A stretch of 64,000 nucleotides of DNA. Origin: Kineosporia succinea. GTDB taxonomy: Bacteria > Actinomycetota > Actinomycetes > Actinomycetales > Kineosporiaceae. The notes below the pieces were generated by a model that saw only the letters and a program-made list of their open reading frames with translations, ran no database searches and was not told the origin of the DNA. How positions within the stretch are numbered: position 1 is the first letter of the stretch; every line of letters starts with the position of its first letter. The DNA lies in assembly GCF_030811555.1 (NCBI RefSeq), contig NZ_JAUSQZ010000001.1, forward strand, positions 1,736,001 through 1,800,000. Direction: 5' to 3'. Shown piece after piece: positions 53,790-63,989 of the stretch. The translations under genes and the position numbers were made by a program.

Positions 53790-53885
53790 AAGTTGCCTGG
53801 CAATCCCCTGGGCCGACTCGCTCTACGGCCTGTGCTCGGGAGAGCATGGCAGGGTGACACACGAAATCTGCCCGGGAACCCGATC

Positions 53886-54998
53886 ATGAGCCTGAGCGGC
53901 CCCACCAGCGGGCCCGTCGAGGGCGGCCGCGCCCTGTTCAAGGGCAAGGTGCTGGGCTTCCCGGTGCACATCGACTGGTCGTTCATCATCATCATGGCGA
54001 TCCTGGGCTACCTCTCCTCGCCGAGCCTCACCGGCCTGGTGGTCTGGGTCCTGATCACCCCGGTGATGGTGCTGGCCCACGAGCTGGGTCACGCCGTGGT
54101 CGCCCGCACCACCGGGGCGAAGCCGGAGATCGCGCTGGCCGGCTTCGGCGGCGTCACCAGCTTCACCCCTCCTCGCGAGCTGAGCCGGGCCCGGTCGATC
54201 GCGATCTCGCTGGCCGGCCCCGCGGTCGGCATCGTCATCGGGATCACGCTGCTCTTCCTGAGCCGCACCGTGTGGACCGACATCAGCACCGAATGGGCCT
54301 ACTGGCTGCTGGAGTTCGGCATCTTCACCTCGCTCGGCTGGAGCGTGCTGAACCTGCTGCCGATCCTGCCGCTCGACGGCGGCCAGGCGATGCGCGAGTT
54401 CCTGCCCGGCGACCCGCTGACCCGGCTGCGCCGCGCGGCCTGGGTCTCCCTGGTGGTGGCGCTGCTGGCCGCGGCCGCCGCCTACTACCTGCTCGACGGC
54501 CGGATCTTCCTGACGATCTTCCTGCTGTTCTTCGCCGCCAGTAATTTCATGACGGTGCGCGACCTCTCGCGCAACGAGTCGGTCAGCCAGGACGGCCTGC
54601 GCGGTCCCCGGCCGGGTCAGTCGCCCGAGACCATGATCGTCGAGATGCTCTGGCGCAACCAGGCCGAGCGCGCCCGTCAGGTGATGCAGTCGCTGCCCGA
54701 CGGCGTGGCGATCGACCTGGCACTGCACGGCGCGGTGCTGAGCCTGACCGGTGACCCGCAGCAGGGGCACGCACTGCTCGAGCAGGAGACGCAGCGGCGT
54801 CCCCAAGACCCGAACCTGGCCGCGATCCTGGCCCTCACGCAGGCCCTGGAACACGACTGGGACGCACTGATCCACACCCTGCAGGGGCCTCTGGGGCCGC
54901 ACGTGCCGCCGCCGGTGATGGACCGGGCCGTCACCGAGGCGCGGGCCACGGGCCGGGAGGACGTGGCCGGGCGACTCACGGTTCTGCGCACTGCCTGA
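53886..54998 (+). CDS. Site-2 protease family (M50) membrane metalloprotease
   Basis: 370 aa. I take ATG 53886; the upstream extension is intergenic. After a short N-terminus come the helix IDWSFIIIMAILGYL, zinc motif LAHELGHAVV (HExxH), and the second half of the site in LNLLPILPLDGGQAM, plus four to five more helices. The C-terminal ~110 residues are soluble and TPR-like (ALLEQETQRRPQDPNLAAILALTQAL). It cleaves membrane-bound substrates such as anti-sigma factors in related systems; target unknown. It ends at a bidirectional terminator. Confidence 0.88.
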   Translation: MSLSGPTSGPVEGGRALFKGKVLGFPVHIDWSFIIIMAILGYLSSPSLTGLVVWVLITPVMVLAHELGHAVVARTTGAKPEIALAGFGGVTSFTPPRELSRARSIAISLAGPAVGIVIGITLLFLSRTVWTDISTEWAYWLLEFGIFTSLGWSVLNLLPILPLDGGQAMREFLPGDPLTRLRRAAWVSLVVALLAAAAAYYLLDGRIFLTIFLLFFAASNFMTVRDLSRNESVSQDGLRGPRPGQSPETMIVEMLWRNQAERARQVMQSLPDGVAIDLALHGAVLSLTGDPQQGHALLEQETQRRPQDPNLAAILALTQALEHDWDALIHTLQGPLGPHVPPPVMDRAVTEARATGREDVAGRLTVLRTA

Positions 54999-55058: not shown

Positions 55059-56135
55059 TCAGGCGAGAATCGGAACCAGACCGATCGCGAACACCACGTA
55101 GAACAACCCGGCCACCGCGAGCCGTGCCGGTGTGAGCCTGTGGGCCGCCATGAGCGCGAGCAGATACCCGATCGCGACCATGGTGACGCCGCCCGACCAG
55201 GTCAGCGCGTGGTCGAAATGCCAGCTGGTGAACAGCAGACCGAGACCGCTGGGCACGGTGGCCTGGATCATCATCGCACCGGAGATGTTGGCCAGCGCCA
55301 GCTTCACCTTGCCCTGGCGCACCCAGATGATCGCGTTCATGATCTCCGGCAGCTCGGTCGCGACCGGTGAGAGCAGCAGCGCCGTCACGGTTCCGGACAG
55401 GCCGAGCATCGGGCCGATCGCGTCGAGCTGGTGCACGAAGAGCTGCGAGGCGACGAAGATGACGACCAGCGTGGCTGCCGTCTGGGCCAGAACCGCCCAC
55501 GTCGCGGGAGATTTCGCGTTCGGCTGGATCTTGAGGGGCTCCAGCTCCTCGTCGTCATCACTCCCGTGACTGTCACCGCCGCCGCTCATCTCCTTCCAGA
55601 AGTAGAGCGCGTAGACGGCGAAGAACAGCAGACCGAGCCAGGGCTTGAACGCGAACGCGACCAGGCCGAGCGCGACCTTGAACACGAAGACGCCGAGGAA
55701 CCACTTCTGGTCACGGGCCAGCCGGGCCATGTCTTCCCGGGTACCGAGAGCGTCTTCACCGGAGAGGCTTTCAGCGGCCGGAGGGCCACCCGCACCCACC
55801 AGCTCCCGGCTGATGATGCGCTTGCGGTAGAGCAGCATCACGCCGGTGACGCCGTAGGCGACGGTGGCCAGCGCGAGCGGGCCGCCCATCGCGGCGCCGA
55901 CGCCGATGTTCTTGGCGTCTTCGGTGGCACCGGTCGTGACGGCCACCAGGGTGACCACGGATTCCGGGAGGGCGGTGCCGAAGGCCGCGAGAATGGTTCC
56001 CACGGCCATCTTTCCGACGTTGAGTCGCTGGCCGAGCCATTCCACCGCGTTGACGAACCACTCACACGAGAGATAGATCGCCACCGCGCAGGTGATGAGT
56101 AACACGAAGTGCCACACGATGTTTTCCTCAGCCAT
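55059..56135 (-). CDS. Cation exchanger of the CaCA family
   Basis: 358 aa integral membrane protein with two alpha repeats: TILAAFGTALPESVVTLVAV (about 45-65) and LLLSPVATELPEIMNAIIW (about 250-270), whose acidic residues bind Ca2+ or Mn2+. About ten helices, with an acidic cytosolic loop (SHGSDDDEELEPL) in the middle. I use ATG 56135: the longer ORF would begin inside a stem after the riboswitch. The riboswitch upstream suggests Mn2+ as inducer, so Mn2+/Ca2+ efflux is likely. Confidence 0.82.
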   Translation of the reverse strand: MAEENIVWHFVLLITCAVAIYLSCEWFVNAVEWLGQRLNVGKMAVGTILAAFGTALPESVVTLVAVTTGATEDAKNIGVGAAMGGPLALATVAYGVTGVMLLYRKRIISRELVGAGGPPAAESLSGEDALGTREDMARLARDQKWFLGVFVFKVALGLVAFAFKPWLGLLFFAVYALYFWKEMSGGGDSHGSDDDEELEPLKIQPNAKSPATWAVLAQTAATLVVIFVASQLFVHQLDAIGPMLGLSGTVTALLLSPVATELPEIMNAIIWVRQGKVKLALANISGAMMIQATVPSGLGLLFTSWHFDHALTWSGGVTMVAIGYLLALMAAHRLTPARLAVAGLFYVVFAIGLVPILA

Positions 56136-56179
56136 TTCCGCGTCCGCAGACGGGATCTCGGCTGGCGGGGCGGCCTTGA

Positions 56180-56219
56180 TCCCGATAGCAGACACACTTG
56201 TAGCGTGCATCTGTCGGGA
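56180..56219 (-). promoter_or_regulatory. Expression-platform hairpin after the riboswitch
   Basis: On the minus strand TCCCGA pairs with TCGGGA, enclosing CAGA/TCTG and a partial TGCAC/GTGTG stem. It has no T run, so it may act on translation or Rho access rather than as an intrinsic terminator. Confidence 0.5.
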
Positions 56220-56940: not shown

Positions 56941-57600
56941 CTACGAACCGCTGCTGCCCGCCCGCAACCACGAGAGCACCGCGAGCACGCGCCGGTTGTC
57001 GTCCGACCCGGCCGGGATGTCCAGCTTGCCGAAGATGCTGGCCGCGTAGTTCTCCACGGTCTTGTGACTGAGGTTGAGCACCGCCGCGACACCCGCGTTG
57101 GAACGCCCCTCGGCCATCTGCCGCAGCACCTGACGCTCGCGCACGGTGAGGGCCGCGAGCGCGTCCTGCCGTCGGGAGTGACCGATGAGACTGTCGACCA
57201 GGGTGGCGTCGACGAGGGACTCCCCGGCCGCGAGGCGCACGAGCGCGTCGCGGAGGGTGCCGACGTCGTCGACCCGGTCTTTGAGCATGTAACCGCGGCC
57301 CGCGCTGCCGTTGGCGAAGAGCTCGGCGGCGTAGGTGGTCTCGGCGTAGGTGGAGAGGATGAGAACGCCGATGGAGGGGTCGGTCTCGCGGATCTTCGCG
57401 GCGGCGTGCAGGCCCTCCCGGGTGAAGGTGGGAGGCATCCGGATATCGAGGATCGCCACCTCGGGCTTCGCCTCGGTGATGCCCTCGACGAGGTCGTCGG
57501 CGTTGCCGGCCTCCAGGCAGACCTCCACCCCGACCTGGCCCAGCAGCAGTTTGAGTCCGCCCCGGAAGAGGCTGGAGTCGTCTGCGATCGCGACCCTCAC
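56941..57600 (-). CDS. NarL/LuxR-type response regulator
   Basis: 219 aa. Receiver domain: acidic pair IADDSS, phospho-acceptor Asp in VAILDIRMP (about 52), switch residue in LILSTYAE and Lys in GYMLKDRVDD, all intact. Then the LuxR HTH with LTVRERQVLRQMAEG and LSHKTVENYAASIFGKL. Start at GTG 57600 has AGGAGG 5 bases upstream. It follows the kinase at 57671-59470 after 70 bp and is the only regulator near both kinases, so it is the likely shared target. Confidence 0.9.
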   Translation of the reverse strand: MRVAIADDSSLFRGGLKLLLGQVGVEVCLEAGNADDLVEGITEAKPEVAILDIRMPPTFTREGLHAAAKIRETDPSIGVLILSTYAETTYAAELFANGSAGRGYMLKDRVDDVGTLRDALVRLAAGESLVDATLVDSLIGHSRRQDALAALTVRERQVLRQMAEGRSNAGVAAVLNLSHKTVENYAASIFGKLDIPAGSDDNRRVLAVLSWLRAGSSGS

Positions 57601-57670: not shown

Positions 57671-59470
57671 TCATCGGTACGGGATCTCCGCCGTCAGCGT
57701 GGTCCCTGCCCCCGGTGGGCTCTCGAGCAGCAGCGTTCCCCCGGCTGCCCTGACCCTTTCGTCCAGTCCGCTCAGTCCGGTGCCCGCGGCCAGATCGGCC
57801 CCGCCGCGCCCGTCGTCTTCGATGGTCAGCCGCAGCGTCCTGCCGGTGTCGGCGCCGCGGACGTCGATGCGCGAGGCGGCGGCGTGCCGCACCGCGTTGG
57901 TGATCGCCTCGGCCGCGACGAAGTACCCGGCGACCTGGGCCGCCATCGGCAGGCCGGGCAGACGGTCGGGCAGGTCGACGGCGACGGTGACCGGCTGGGC
58001 CTGGCCGATGCGGCGCACCGCCTCGGCCAGGCCCAGGCGGTCGAGGATCGAGGGGTGCAGCCCGGCGGCGATCTCGCGCAGCTCGGCCACGGTGGCGCGC
58101 AGCTGCTCGGCCGCGTAGCCGACGGCGTCCTCGATGCCCTCGACCGGCTCGATGGTGGTGAGCAGGTCTTGCACGCGGCGCAGGGCGCCGTCGTCGAGGT
58201 CTTTCTCGAGGGCCTGCCGTTCGGCCAGCTGGGCGGCGACGATGCGGGCGTGGGAGGCGCGCACCAGCTCGAGCTGGGCGCGGGCCTCGACCTGCAGGCG
58301 GGCGTTCTCGATGGCCAGGCCGGCGGCCGAGCCGACCGCCTCGACCAGGTCGGGGTAGCGCCAGAGGGCCTGGTCGGCGCGGATGATCGCGAGGCGCGAG
58401 CCGTTGGTGGAGGTGATCGGCAGGAGCAGGGCCTCCTCGCCGGTCTCGCCGCCGGGCTCGGCCTTGGTGGCGCCGTGCCGGTCGACGTAGGCACCGATCT
58501 CCGCGGCCCAGTAGTGGATCTCGAGGCCGGGGTCGCCGAGCACCTTGCGGAAGGCCTCTTCGAGCCGTTCGGGAGTGCGCTCGACGCGCAGCAGCGGCAG
58601 CAGGTCGGCGATCACCACGCTGGCCAGGCGGCGGCGCACGGTGGCGACGACGAACGCGACCGGCACGGTGAGCAGCAGCGTGGTCTGCAGCACCAGGATG
58701 TCGTCGAGCAGGTCGCCCCGCACCCCCATGACCTGGGCCAGCGAGCCGCACATGCTGGCGGTGCCGGCGATCGCGGCGGCCCCGGCGACGGGCAGCAGCA
58801 GCTTGCGGTCGAGGCCGCGGATGCGCCGGCTGCGGCGCACCCAGAGGATCAGGAAGCCGGTGGCGAGCAGCACCTCGCCGACCGAGGAGACGTAGGCCAG
58901 CGTGCGGTGGAAGCCCGGGTCGGACTGCACCGTGGGCCACCAGGCGGCGCCGTGGTCGCGTTCGGCGGCGAGGTCGGAGCTGACCACCACCAGGACGCGG
59001 CCGACGAGGACCCAGGCGGTGAGCGAGAACAGGAAGCGGCGCTCGGCGCGGCCGACCGAGGCCGGGTCCGGGTAGCCGAAGATGGCCCAGGCCGCGAGCA
59101 CCAGGGTGAGGGGCGCGGCGAGGAACGAGACCAGGTGCAGCGGGCCCCGGGTGATCTCCTCGACCCAGCTCAGCGGCCAGACGCAGCCGGCCAGCACGAT
59201 GGCCCGCCCGGCCGGGCCCTGACCGGGTTCGCGGGCCAGGATCACGCCGACCGCGACCAGGGCCCCGGCGAAGACGACGGTGGGTGCGGCCAGGGCCGGG
59301 TTCTTGGCCCAGAGCGAGCTGATGCCGATCGAGGCGACGGCGGTGACCGTGCTGCCGGCCAGCAGCGCCGCGAGCCAGAACACGGGGCGCAGGCGGGCGG
59401 CCGGCGAACCCCCGTTACCCCCGGAGGGCGCCGGTGCGGACCCGCGCGACCCGGTGAACCGGGAGGCCAT
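57671..59470 (-). CDS. Sensor kinase lacking the phospho-acceptor His
   Basis: 599 aa from ATG 59470. Residues about 25-270 hold seven or so membrane helices; a GAF-like domain follows (about 285-400). The HisKA_3 helix reads LEKDLDDGALRRVQ where the family has LERDLHDGAQQRL: the codon at 58193-58195 (residue 426) is GAC, Asp instead of His. The ATP domain is normal: YFVAAEAITNAVRHA (N box, Asn 525), EDDGRGGADL and GTGLSGLDERV (G box). So it should bind ATP but cannot autophosphorylate in the usual way. Confidence 0.88.
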   Translation of the reverse strand: MASRFTGSRGSAPAPSGGNGGSPAARLRPVFWLAALLAGSTVTAVASIGISSLWAKNPALAAPTVVFAGALVAVGVILAREPGQGPAGRAIVLAGCVWPLSWVEEITRGPLHLVSFLAAPLTLVLAAWAIFGYPDPASVGRAERRFLFSLTAWVLVGRVLVVVSSDLAAERDHGAAWWPTVQSDPGFHRTLAYVSSVGEVLLATGFLILWVRRSRRIRGLDRKLLLPVAGAAAIAGTASMCGSLAQVMGVRGDLLDDILVLQTTLLLTVPVAFVVATVRRRLASVVIADLLPLLRVERTPERLEEAFRKVLGDPGLEIHYWAAEIGAYVDRHGATKAEPGGETGEEALLLPITSTNGSRLAIIRADQALWRYPDLVEAVGSAAGLAIENARLQVEARAQLELVRASHARIVAAQLAERQALEKDLDDGALRRVQDLLTTIEPVEGIEDAVGYAAEQLRATVAELREIAAGLHPSILDRLGLAEAVRRIGQAQPVTVAVDLPDRLPGLPMAAQVAGYFVAAEAITNAVRHAAASRIDVRGADTGRTLRLTIEDDGRGGADLAAGTGLSGLDERVRAAGGTLLLESPPGAGTTLTAEIPYR

Positions 59471-59739
59471 GGCGTTGGCTGACAATCCGTCCCTCGTGCC
59501 CGATGCTCACGTGCGCCGACAAGTGCCCCGGACTGAGCGGTTCTGCCCGACACCGGGCGATCCGCCGCTTTCGTCGTCCATTGTTACTGAACAGCATCAG
59601 AGAGTATCGGCTGCTCGGCGCAATGACCCCATCCAGGACGGATCTCACGTCTCACAGGGCACTGTGTGACCAGGCGTCTCACCGGCTGCGTGCTCCGGTC
59701 CGCTGCCGTAGCGGTGTTCGGGCACAGGGGCGGCTGCGT
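59471..59739. other. Intergenic region between the two kinase genes
   Basis: 269 bp between the end of one kinase gene and the start of the other on the same strand. It probably holds a separate promoter for the downstream kinase. No open frame or clear hairpin was seen. Confidence 0.4.
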
Positions 59740-61530
59740 TCAGGCGCAGGGGATGGCGGCGACCATCAGCGAGCCGCCGCGGGAGAGCGTGGAGAACATG
59801 ATGTCGCCGCCGAGAGCCCGCACCCGGTCGAGCATCCCGGGCAACTCGGCGTCGAGACGCATCTGCGCCGGGCGCCGCCCGTCGTCCTCCACCTCGATGG
59901 TGAGCACACCGTCGGTCTCGTGCCCGCGGATGCTGACCCGGGCCCCGGACTGCTCGGCCGCTCCCTTGAGCGCGGCACAGATCAGGTAGTAGGCCGTCTC
60001 CTCGGTGGCGGCCGGGAAACGCCCGGCGGGCAGGTCGGCGTCGACCACCAGGGGCTGCTGCTGGGCCATCGCCTCGATCGCCGCCGACAACCCGGCCTGG
60101 CTCAGCACCGCCGGGTGGATGCCGCGGGCCAGGTCGCGCAGTTCGTTCAGGGCCAGCGCGATCTGATGGCTCATGCTGCGCAGCCGTTCCCGCGAGGAGT
60201 CGCTGAGGTCGGGCGAGTCCGAGGCCGCGAGCACCAGCCGCAGGGCGAGGAGCCGCTGCTGGGCGCCGTCGTGCAGGTCGCGCTCGACCCGGCGGCGCTC
60301 GGCCACCCCGGCCTGCACCGCCTGCATGCGCACCTGCCGCACCTGGCTGAGCCGGCCCAGCACCGCGGCCTGCAACTGCGCGTTCTCCAGGGCCAGGCCA
60401 CTGGCGGCGAGCGCGTTGGAGACCACGTGCGGATGCCGGCGCAGCACCGCATCGGCGTCGATGACGGCGAGCGGGCCGCCGGCCGGGGCGGTGACGACGA
60501 GCTCGAGCCGGTCACCGCCGGACTGGTCGACGGGCTCGTCGATGGGGGTGCCGGTGACGTCGACGTAGGCGTTGAGGTCGGGCGCCCAGTAGCGCACGCG
60601 GAGGGTGGCGTCGCGCAGGGCGGTGCGCAGCGCTGTCTGCACGGCCTCGGGGGTGGGGCGGCGTTGCACCTGCTGGATCAGGGTGAGCACGGCGTTGTCG
60701 GCGAGGCGCCGGCGCACCACGCTGACCAGGAAGGCGAGGGGCACGACGGCGAGAACGGCGGGCTGGAAGGCGTACACCGTGTCCATCCGGGTGCCGCTCA
60801 GGCCGAACAGCCGGGCCACCGGCACGGCGGCCGCGGCCAGCCCGGCGGCGGGTGCGGCCAGGGCCATCGGGGCGAGCAGTTCCCGGTCGAGGCCGCGCAT
60901 CCGGCGGATCCGCACCATCCACAGCAGCAGGAACCCGGCCACCAGCAGGACCTGGACGGTCTGCATGACCTCGCCGATCGCGTCGTGCAGGGCACGGTCG
61001 GCGTGCAGGGTGATCCAGAGGGTGCCCGGGTCGTAGTCCTTCCACTCGGGGCGCATGGTGACGGTCTCGGCGAGGATCCCGCCGATCACGGTGACGGCCA
61101 GTACCCGCACGAAGACCCGCTCCACGCGGTTCATCAGGGCCGGATCCGGGTAGCGGAACATGGCCCAGACGGCGAGCGAGAGCGCCACGTAACTGGAGAT
61201 GCCGGAGACCAGCGGGAACGGGCTGACCCGCCACTCCTCGCTCCAGCCGAGGGCCCAGAACTGCCCGGCGAGCACCAGCAGCACGGCGGTGCGGCGGTGG
61301 CCGGGTTCGCTCCACAGGATGGCCCCGGCACCGCTGAACATCGCGGTGAAGAGGATGCTGCCCGCGGCGACCTCGGGGTACTCACGCCAGAGGGGGCCGA
61401 AGACGAACGCACCGAGGAGTGTGAGGGCACCGGTGACGGCCAGGGTGTGCGACCACTGGCGGCTCGGCGAGAGCGGTGGTGGACGTTGCTGGGACGTCGG
61501 CGCCAGAGACGTCGTCCTCACCGTATTCAC
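59740..61530 (-). CDS. Sensor kinase with intact His but degenerate ATP-binding domain
   Basis: 596 aa, same architecture as the neighbour: multi-pass N-terminus (about 30-290), GAF-like region, HisKA_3 and ATPase. The DHp motif is intact, RRVERDLHDGAQQRLLALRL, with His 420 (codon 60271-60273). The ATP domain is not: the N box reads YYLICAALKGAAEQSGA, so Glu becomes Ala and Asn becomes Gly (codon 59962-59964, residue 523), and the glycine lid is DAELPGMLDRV. The D box EDDGR remains. It can probably be phosphorylated but should be a poor ATPase. GTG 61530 is the assumed start. Confidence 0.88.
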   Translation of the reverse strand: MNTVRTTSLAPTSQQRPPPLSPSRQWSHTLAVTGALTLLGAFVFGPLWREYPEVAAGSILFTAMFSGAGAILWSEPGHRRTAVLLVLAGQFWALGWSEEWRVSPFPLVSGISSYVALSLAVWAMFRYPDPALMNRVERVFVRVLAVTVIGGILAETVTMRPEWKDYDPGTLWITLHADRALHDAIGEVMQTVQVLLVAGFLLLWMVRIRRMRGLDRELLAPMALAAPAAGLAAAAVPVARLFGLSGTRMDTVYAFQPAVLAVVPLAFLVSVVRRRLADNAVLTLIQQVQRRPTPEAVQTALRTALRDATLRVRYWAPDLNAYVDVTGTPIDEPVDQSGGDRLELVVTAPAGGPLAVIDADAVLRRHPHVVSNALAASGLALENAQLQAAVLGRLSQVRQVRMQAVQAGVAERRRVERDLHDGAQQRLLALRLVLAASDSPDLSDSSRERLRSMSHQIALALNELRDLARGIHPAVLSQAGLSAAIEAMAQQQPLVVDADLPAGRFPAATEETAYYLICAALKGAAEQSGARVSIRGHETDGVLTIEVEDDGRRPAQMRLDAELPGMLDRVRALGGDIMFSTLSRGGSLMVAAIPCA

Positions 61531-62552: not shown

Positions 62553-63530
62553 GTGTCGCGAAAGAAGATGGATGCCCGGGCCGCTGCGGCCCTCGTCGCC
62601 TTCGCCGTGGTGGCGGTGACCGGCGGTGTGTTCTACGCCCGCTCCGGTTCCGACGCCGGTCAGGCCCAGCTGGTGCTGTCGCGACCCGATGTCGCCATCG
62701 CCACGCAGAGCGCCCAGGCGCCCGACGACGCGCCCGACAGCGGCGCCGACCCCACCACGTCCCCCTCCGCATCCGTCTCCCCCTCGGCGAAACCGAGACC
62801 GAAGCCGAAGAAGACGGCCGAGAAAGAAGAACCGCTGACCGCGGCGGCGACGTCGCCGACGAAGAAGGCGGCCGCCCCGAAGAAGGCCGCCTCGAGCAGC
62901 AAGGTCGCGGCCGACACCTCCGGCGACCGCATCGTGTTCGGCCAGACCTACGACGGCATCGCCACCTTCTACGGCGCGACCGGCGCGGGCAACTGCTCCT
63001 ACGACCCCACCACCGACCTGATGGTGGCCGCGATGAACGAGCAGGACTACCAGGGCTCCCAGGCCTGCGGCGCCTACGTCGACGTCACCGGGCCGGCGGG
63101 CAACACCGTGCGGGTCAAGATCGTCGACCGCTGCCCGGAGTGCCGGCCGGGCCACATCGACCTCTCCGCCCAGGCTTTCGCCAAGCTGGCCGAGCCGGTC
63201 GAGGGCCGCATCGACATCACCTGGAAGATGGTGAGCCCCAGCCTGTCCGGGCCGGTGAAGTACGTGTACAAGGAAGGCAGCACCCAGTGGTGGTGCGGCA
63301 TCCAGGTGCGTGACCACCGCAACCCGATCCGCAAGGTCGAGCTCAAGGGCCCCAACGGCTGGATCACTCTCGACCGGCAGATGTACAACTACTTCCTCTC
63401 CGCGAACGGCGAGGGTTGCGGCGGAACGGTCCGGATCACCGACATCCAGGGCAATCAGCTCACCGACAGCGGCATTTCGATCAAACCGCTGGTCGAGCAG
63501 AGCGGCGCGGGCCAGTTGCCGGCCGCCTGA
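62553..63530 (+). CDS. Secreted expansin/RlpA-like protein
   Basis: 325 aa. N-terminal membrane anchor or signal (ALVAFAVVAVTGGVF), then a Pro/Ser/Lys-rich linker to about residue 125. Next is a double-psi beta-barrel domain with DGIATFYGATGAGNCSYD, VKIVDRCPECRPGHIDLS (the catalytic-type Asp) and disulfide cysteines, followed by a C-terminal beta-sandwich similar to expansin domain 2 with YKEGSTQWWCGIQVRDHR and surface aromatics. It probably loosens cell-wall polysaccharide without hydrolysis. It starts at GTG 62553; ATG 62568 is an alternative. Confidence 0.85.
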   Translation: MSRKKMDARAAAALVAFAVVAVTGGVFYARSGSDAGQAQLVLSRPDVAIATQSAQAPDDAPDSGADPTTSPSASVSPSAKPRPKPKKTAEKEEPLTAAATSPTKKAAAPKKAASSSKVAADTSGDRIVFGQTYDGIATFYGATGAGNCSYDPTTDLMVAAMNEQDYQGSQACGAYVDVTGPAGNTVRVKIVDRCPECRPGHIDLSAQAFAKLAEPVEGRIDITWKMVSPSLSGPVKYVYKEGSTQWWCGIQVRDHRNPIRKVELKGPNGWITLDRQMYNYFLSANGEGCGGTVRITDIQGNQLTDSGISIKPLVEQSGAGQLPAA

Positions 63531-63603: not shown

Positions 63604-63631
63604 TTGACGTATGCCTATATCGGAATACGAT
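63604..63631 (+). promoter_or_regulatory. arsR-type promoter with overlapping operator
   Basis: -35 TTGACG (63604-63609), 16-bp spacer, -10 TACGAT (63626-63631), predicting transcription start at about 63638. The imperfect repeat CGTATGCC/GGAATACG (63608-63629, 7 of 8 pairs) lies between the two elements, right where an ArsR repressor would act. Confidence 0.6.
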
Positions 63632-63638
63632 GAGTGGC

Positions 63639-63989
63639 ATGGCCCGCGCCGCGACGACGACCGATGCGTTCAGCGCCGTGGCCGAGCCGCGCCGGCGACA
63701 GCTCCTGCTGCTGCTGGCCCGGGGGGAACTGCCGGTGAACGACCTGGTCGGGATGACCGACCTGGCCCAGCCGGTGGTGTCGAAACATCTGCGGGTACTG
63801 CGCGAAGTGGGTCTGGTGACGGCGCGGGACGAGGGACGGCAACGGCTCTACCGCCTGAATCCCGAGGGCCTGCAACCGATCCACGACTGGCTGGCGTCGT
63901 TCGAGCGGCTCTGGCAGGGGCGGTTCTCCGCCCTGGACGACGTCCTCGCGGAACTCGAGGCCGAATCCGAGAAGGGGCAGGGGACATGA
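63639..63989 (+). CDS. ArsR family transcriptional regulator
   Basis: 116 aa winged-helix protein. VAEPRRRQLLLLLARGELPV, then DLAQPVVSKHLRVLREVGLV (recognition helix) and DEGRQRLYRLNPEGLQ (wing), then a helical C-terminus. It lacks the CVC metal site of ArsR metal sensors and belongs to the ArsR group paired with SRPBCC enzymes. ATG 63639 coincides with the predicted transcription start (leaderless); ATG 63630 lies inside the -10 and is rejected. The stop overlaps the next gene by ATGA. Confidence 0.88.
   Translation: MARAATTTDAFSAVAEPRRRQLLLLLARGELPVNDLVGMTDLAQPVVSKHLRVLREVGLVTARDEGRQRLYRLNPEGLQPIHDWLASFERLWQGRFSALDDVLAELEAESEKGQGT

Follow-up and report, generated by a model that had tools for sequence, protein, structure and literature searches.

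How can a two-component system signal when neither of its sensor kinases is complete? Histidine kinases are usually described as homodimers, and the question is raised by two adjacent multi-pass sensor kinases of Kineosporia succinea, here called HK1 and HK2. Together with one NarL-type response regulator they lie in the analysed window, a 64,000-nucleotide stretch at positions 1736001-1800000 of an 8.07 Mb contig. HK1 lacks the phospho-acceptor histidine and HK2 lacks the ATP site. Judged by sequence, the two are likely to form a heterodimeric sensor kinase in which HK1 would be the ATP donor and HK2 the acceptor, with the regulator receiving the phosphate.

Complementary defects in two adjacent kinases

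The frames, coordinates and strands of both kinases agree with those of a preliminary description of the locus (Table 1), as do the residues that it singled out. At the position of the phospho-acceptor, HK1 has Asp426; its H-box stretch reads EKDLDDGALRRV, where lone relatives mostly have RDLHDGAQQRL. The N box (AEAITNAVRH), D box (DDGRGG) and G box with its glycine lid (GTGLSG) are retained. HK2 carries His420 within RDLHDGAQQRL; its N box reads CAALKGAAEQ, with Glu changed to Ala and Asn to Gly, and its lid reads DAELPG. The DDG of the D box is still present in HK2 of the window, and its Gly is gone in the HK2 of all five other Kineosporia genomes. Acceptor-side residues are in HK2 and ATP-site residues are in HK1, and the residue alignment reveals no complete kinase inside the pair; most lone relatives carry both motifs. 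Pfam gives the same picture, with HATPase_c but not HisKA_3 in HK1 and HisKA_3 but not HATPase_c in HK2. Neither protein combines the two domains, which the pair together possesses. The acceptor His and the ATP site lie on separate proteins, as defines a split histidine kinase. No whole domain has been lost: both proteins have their full length, and their structure models contain predicted DHp and CA elements.

HK1 and HK2 are 34% identical across 595 columns and share the layout noted in the preliminary description, except that its GAF-like region has no Pfam GAF match and appears in the models as a small alpha/beta domain of moderate confidence. In a fold search, DesK ranked first for the HK1 model and high for the HK2 model, in which the altered CA domain retains its predicted fold. 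The regulator (P0003), downstream of the kinases, has Response_reg and GerE domains (Pfam) and is intact at the phosphorylation site, as described earlier. Gene order points to it as the partner of the HK1/HK2 pair.

Orthologues of HK1 (77-81% identity), HK2 (76-85%) and the regulator (89-93%) were found in 5/5 other Kineosporia genomes, and the three genes are adjacent in 6/6. The two defects, which the preliminary description proposed to follow across related genomes, are conserved together. The His position of HK1 is Asp in five genomes and Glu in one, with the N box intact in all six. All six HK2 proteins keep the His, lack the N-box Asn and Glu and have a disrupted GxG in the lid. The recurrence of the defects in six genomes makes a sequencing error very unlikely.

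A third paralogue without an ATP site

Each of the six Kineosporia genomes holds, away from the pair, one copy of a third paralogue, HK3, which is 65-70% identical to HK2. Its His and HDxxxQ motif are intact in 6/6 and its N-box Asn and Glu are gone in 6/6; the lid GxG is broken in the 5/5 readable copies, the contig of the remaining copy stopping short of the lid. When HK1, HK2 and the regulator were used as BLAST queries against the six fetched HK3 loci, no His-less partner was detected in any of them and no regulator in 5/6; the other locus (G001) has a distant regulator-like frame (28% identity) ~1.1 kb upstream. In all six genomes the sensor profile returned HK1, HK2, HK3 and nothing else at E <= 1e-45, and HK1 is therefore the only one of the three to hold an ATP site.

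The HDxxxQ motif, which a review describes as indispensable for phosphatase activity in this class (PMC6798134; papers are cited here by PubMed Central accession), is kept in 12/12 HK2 and HK3 sequences. Within the pair, its Gln is absent from HK1 in 6/6 and kept by HK2 in 6/6. The pair might be a phosphatase or sink, with HK2 dephosphorylating the regulator under the control of HK1 and no forward kinase step. Such a role is highly improbable, since it leaves the strict retention of the HK1 ATP site unexplained.

HisKA_3 matches in this genome number 41, two being HK2 and HK3. The His is present in 39/39 of the remainder and the N-box Asn in 38/39, the exception being a short, apparently broken frame; this control was built from a HisKA_3 search and is blind to His-less kinases. 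A search of the genome with the HK1 core returned two further places, C1:5685423 and C1:5687673, by eye another kind of HATPase protein. In this region (L190, C1:5683000-5691000, outside the window), a frame separates a pair of HATPase-like proteins that have no HisKA_3 match and that by eye are a different sort of His-less kinase.

Selection mirrors the split

Ratios of nonsynonymous to synonymous substitution rates (dN/dS) are mean pairwise values from a rough Nei-Gojobori calculation over short windows. In HK1 the surroundings of the lost His give 0.45, the N box 0.11 and the whole protein 0.33; in HK2 the surroundings of the His give 0.09, the former N box 0.15 and the whole protein 0.31. 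HK3 (five genomes) gives 0.09 around the His and 0.65 in the N box, which is nearly free to vary. Site-by-site permutation of labels gives p = 2.5e-4 for the swap in amino-acid variability between HK1 and HK2, and the swap recurs in five pairs of another bacterial family, f35 (p = 1e-3). Six lone complete kinases from family f36 have both boxes constrained (0.056 and 0.055), with no contrast. The N box of HK1 and the H box of HK2 are constrained and the H box of HK1 is relaxed, so that selection mirrors the split.

Conservation in 6/6 genomes and these ratios speak against pseudogenes. Because catalytic residues are lost from both proteins, the pair could still be thought of as decaying, that is, as two pseudokinases left without kinase function after a duplication. 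This is scarcely credible in view of the open frames and purifying selection in six genomes, the intact and conserved regulator, and the repetition of complementary loss in neighbouring pairs described below.

It might also be that the altered CA domain of HK2 binds ATP in a non-canonical way, HK2 being an ordinary homodimer and HK1 a dominant modulator. The persistence of DDG in HK2 of the window, the predicted fold of its CA domain and the constraint on that domain and on the former N box are consistent with such binding. Against it stand the loss of the N-box Asn and Glu in 6/6 HK2 and 6/6 HK3, the broken GxG in every HK2 and every readable HK3, the nearly free N box of HK3, and the deletion of the N box in a related acceptor (L192, below); this alternative is accordingly rated improbable.

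Complementary pairs in related bacteria

Related loci were collected by searching 394 genomes of the class with the HK2 sensor part and families f36 (35 genomes) and f35 (200 genomes) with a profile. Here f27, f35 and f36 are labels for bacterial families, and L and G numbers label the loci and genomes of this analysis. All places listed by these searches were fetched, and the list from an HK1 search was sampled in part. A member was called lone when it was the only one of the family in the fetched stretch, some stretches ending at contig ends. L129, a kinase spread over two frames, and the second frame of L121 were left out before residue alignment. Tallies of pairs and lone members count genomes; the origins behind them are far fewer.

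The first tally held 21 pairs, of which 14 were complementary, five joined a complete kinase to a CA-less partner, one joined a complete to an ATP-only kinase, and one (L097) had a broken frame. Its 58 lone members comprised 47 complete kinases, six HK3, four without both parts and one broken frame. The four without both parts (L105, L108, L111 and L118) are open frames beside regulator-like frames, and are full pseudokinases.

In the five complementary pairs of f35 the regulator gene lies between the His-only kinase, which comes first, and the ATP-only kinase; Tyr replaces the N-box Asn in 5/5, and Gln, Arg or Lys stands in place of the lost His. Complementary pairs occur in three genomes of f36 (L094, L096, L101), with Glu, Ala or Leu at the lost His. 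A blind set of 42 loci (20 + 22), two of them from the HK1 search list, was then fetched with kinase residues unread. Both of its pairs, L192 and L218 of f27, were complementary (2/2), and 38/40 of its lone kinases were complete, L213 and L227 being unreadable. In L192 the N box is deleted from the protein that carries the His, and the other protein combines Ala in place of the His with an intact N box; a receiver-only regulator (by eye) and a transporter-like gene separate the two. In L218 the His-less member shows Arg at that position and keeps its N box intact, and its partner retains the His and carries Gly in place of the N-box Asn. The donors of L192 and L218 are 42% identical and the acceptors 44%, indicating one conserved lineage present in two genera.

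In total, 16/23 pairs, from four bacterial families, are complementary and 0/23 consist of two complete kinases. Among lone members 85/98 are complete, six are HK3, four lack both parts and three are unreadable (L121 and L227, broken frames, the latter with both motifs in another frame, and L213, at a contig end). Pfam kinase-core domains were compared for six pairs, and 12/12 proteins match only HisKA_3 (acceptors) or only HATPase (donors). Two wider profile searches, all of whose listed places were fetched, returned only lone members apart from the Kineosporia genes, five from 396 genomes of the phylum and none from 297 of the order.

Repeated origin

The number of origins was addressed with two trees. 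The sensor-part tree contains 83/100 rows, 17 near-duplicate, short or divergent rows being removed; the catalytic tree contains 78 rows and 169 columns, with motif columns and six CA-less rows taken out and the L101 donor added. The sensor tree requires at least 5 label changes for donors and 4 for acceptors (6 and 5 in a quick tree with L192 added). Approximately unbiased (AU) tests rejected a single clade of donors (sensor p = 1.5e-6, catalytic p = 5e-4) and of acceptors (sensor p = 7.5e-50, catalytic p = 6.6e-6). One ancient split common to all pairs is thereby rejected in two partitions. In both trees the donors and acceptors of f35 fall into a single clade (100/100 and 100/97), as a local duplication would predict. 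A clade of Kineosporia and f35 donors was rejected in both trees (3e-5 and 3e-7), and for the corresponding acceptors the catalytic test was marginal (p = 0.047). The Kineosporia genes group in the sensor tree (94/77); the catalytic data are undecided on a clade of HK1, HK2 and HK3 (p = 0.53). The regulator follows the pair in Kineosporia, lies between the members in f35 and L094, precedes them in L101 and is divergent in L096, a variation that also fits separate origins. Two separate origins, in Kineosporia and f35, are well supported by these sequences and about five are likely, the exact number being uncertain since a preliminary tree had been seen before the tests and many branches are long.

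These origins also bear on whether HK1 catalyses at all. HK2, and HK3 with it, could instead be phosphorylated by another complete kinase, HK1 being merely regulatory or co-sensing, as in networks of the GacS/RetS type. The genome has 38 further HisKA_3 kinases with His and N box, HK3 has no His-less partner in its fetched flanks, and partner kinases that modulate a complete kinase have been described (PMC12675982, PMC9491836). However, the strong constraint on the N box of HK1, and not on its H box, suggests that HK1 catalysis is used, and at least two lineages of separate origin, probably about five, have a His-less, ATP-competent kinase in the neighbourhood of a His-only kinase. Phosphorylation by another kinase is therefore considered unlikely.

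A predicted donor-acceptor heterodimer

For the heterodimer of HK1 and HK2, we infer dimerisation, the trans direction, the flow of phosphate and a role for HK3 as follows. The CA domain of HK1 would bind ATP and phosphorylate His420 of HK2 in trans, and HK2 would hand the phosphate to Asp52 of the adjacent regulator. Neither homodimer would phosphorylate itself, and a signal would thus need both kinds of subunit. HK2, with the sole HDxxxQ motif of the pair, is likely to be the phosphatase subunit too. The Asp or Glu of HK1 may serve as a built-in phosphomimetic, like H188E of DesK, and may keep the HK1 side of the DHp bundle in an active conformation; other lineages carry Gln, Arg, Lys, Ala, Leu or Glu in place of the His. 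HK3 is probably another acceptor, in competition with HK2 for HK1, and the existence of this third paralogue means that HK2 may not be the only partner of HK1.

The preliminary description took trans phosphorylation to be the rule for HisKA_3 kinases, a claim that goes too far. The direction is set by the DHp loop, and the trans rule may fail in NarX/NarQ (PMC8199190, a review). In the phosphotransfer complex of DesK, however, solved with the phosphomimetic H188E, one CA domain does touch helix alpha1 of the other protomer; the complex is asymmetric and leaves a single regulator site (PMC5231405). By analogy, a heterodimer with one CA domain and one His fits this asymmetry.

Several observations weigh against a heterodimer of this kind, or against its generality. 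The CA domain of HK2 is still constrained (dN/dS ~0.2), and dN/dS shows no relaxation of the former N box relative to the whole protein, which implies a role that ATP binding does not explain. HK3 is a lone His-only kinase. Five pairs from genus g110 of f36 (L093, L095, L098, L099, L100) consist of a complete kinase and a CA-less partner, which has lost the His too in 4/5. In L119 (G252:C1; 5026-7164 +, 7489-9309 -) a complete and a His-less, ATP-competent kinase are convergent, one pair (L097) has a broken frame, and four lone kinases lack both parts (L105:5250-7211, L108:5584-7377, L111:5677-7506, L118:4245-6164). Finally, the models of HK1 and HK2 are monomers (mean predicted local distance difference test scores of 71 and 74), from which the handedness of the DHp bundle is unreadable.

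A broader proposal, for and against which the balance is about even, is that this family repeatedly makes obligate donor/acceptor heterodimers, with at least two and probably about five origins, fixing the transient asymmetry of DesK. Kineosporia HK1 would then serve competing HK2 and HK3 as a half-enzyme logic gate. If true, such recurrent reciprocal loss following duplication would clearly exemplify subfunctionalisation into an obligate two-subunit sensor (AND gate). The choice between cis and trans phosphorylation is not settled for every DesK-type kinase, and natural subunits with a single role make the question directly testable: mixing HK1 with HK2 would read out trans phosphorylation without engineered mutants.

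Features of the locus

Table 1. Coordinates of the kinases, their key residues, the regulator and neighbouring genes (window positions unless stated)
Feature	Position	Strand	Description	Basis
HK1	57671..59470	-	multi-pass sensor kinase, predicted ATP-donor subunit without phospho-acceptor His	frame, Pfam, alignment
HK1 lost-His codon	58193..58195	-	GAC, Asp426 (numbered from ATG at 59470)	
HK1 intact N box	57884..57916	-	Asn525; dN/dS ~0.11 around box	
HK2	59740..61530	-	multi-pass sensor kinase, predicted His-acceptor subunit without ATP site	
HK2 His420	60271..60273	-	predicted sole phospho-acceptor of the pair, within intact HDxxxQ	
HK2 degenerate N box	59950..59982	-	Glu to Ala, Asn to Gly; glycine-rich lid likewise gone	
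NarL-type response regulator	56941..57600	-	Asp52 phospho-acceptor, Asp7/Asp8, Ser83-Thr84 and Lys107 all intact	
HK3	this genome C1:4218475-4220178 (L044:6386-8185)		third paralogue, HK2-like; copies in 5 other Kineosporia genomes	
M50 peptidase-like protein	53793-54998	+	no visible link to the kinases	
Sodium/calcium exchanger	55059-56210	-	no visible link to the kinases	
Double-psi beta-barrel protein	62553-63530	+	DPBB_1; expansin-like, judged by eye	Pfam
ArsR-type regulator	63630-63989	+	no visible link to the kinases	

Comparison with known systems

The idea of a split kinase is known. In Mycobacterium tuberculosis, an ATP-binding part and a His part are reportedly found in two proteins, Rv0600c and Rv0601c, with one regulator, TcrA; these are said to be one kinase split into domain-sized proteins, unlike two full-length sensors. 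The two kinases cooperate with TcrA (PMC9274095). Hik36/Hik43 of Synechocystis has been called a split histidine kinase and likewise consists of two proteins and a regulator, linked by two-hybrid assay, but Hpt on one side and DIM, CA, CheW-interacting and REC domains on the other are shared out between unlike proteins whose genes are far apart (PMC7656254). In the actinobacterium Corynebacterium glutamicum, the native paralogues ChrS and HrrS heterodimerise in a two-hybrid assay; there, in contrast, the pseudokinase came from a laboratory-evolved strain, its His is dispensable, and its truncated form gave no significant heterodimer signal (PMC9491836). DesK of Bacillus subtilis resembles HK1 and HK2 in its HisKA_3 core, its fold, its asymmetric active form and the H188E phosphomimetic (PMC5231405, PMC6798134). 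It is a homodimer in which either subunit may take either role, whereas the roles of HK1 and HK2 would be set by sequence.

The preliminary description knew of no system of this exact form; two described systems are comparable. One of them, FasB/FasC of group A Streptococcus, is reported to belong to a different kinase class from HK1/HK2. It shares with them the arrangement of two sensor-kinase-like proteins of one locus with one regulator, FasA; FasB and FasC heterodimerise in a two-hybrid assay, and FasC is proposed to be a pseudokinase whose His is used and FasB the ATP donor (PMC12675982). The difference is that FasB retains a candidate His (H284), so that the loss is not shown to be reciprocal, and the available text of that paper does not mention repeated origin (PMC12675982).

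For reciprocal residue-level loss in neighbouring HisKA_3 kinases, or its repeated origin, no description was found in searches of open-licence PubMed Central papers, subscription papers and preprints lying outside their range. The reciprocal form in full-length membrane sensors, its repeated origin and the shared third subunit look new. The other comparable system, CheA3/CheA4 of Rhodobacter sphaeroides, has been characterised biochemically: the ATP site and the His are on separate proteins, neither autophosphorylates alone, and together they phosphorylate a regulator (PMC3591291). These are cytoplasmic chemotaxis kinases missing whole domains, P1 in one and P3 and P4 in the other (PMC3591291), whereas HK1 and HK2 are full-length membrane sensors with a HisKA_3-type core, in which complementary losses occurred at the level of residues and occurred repeatedly.

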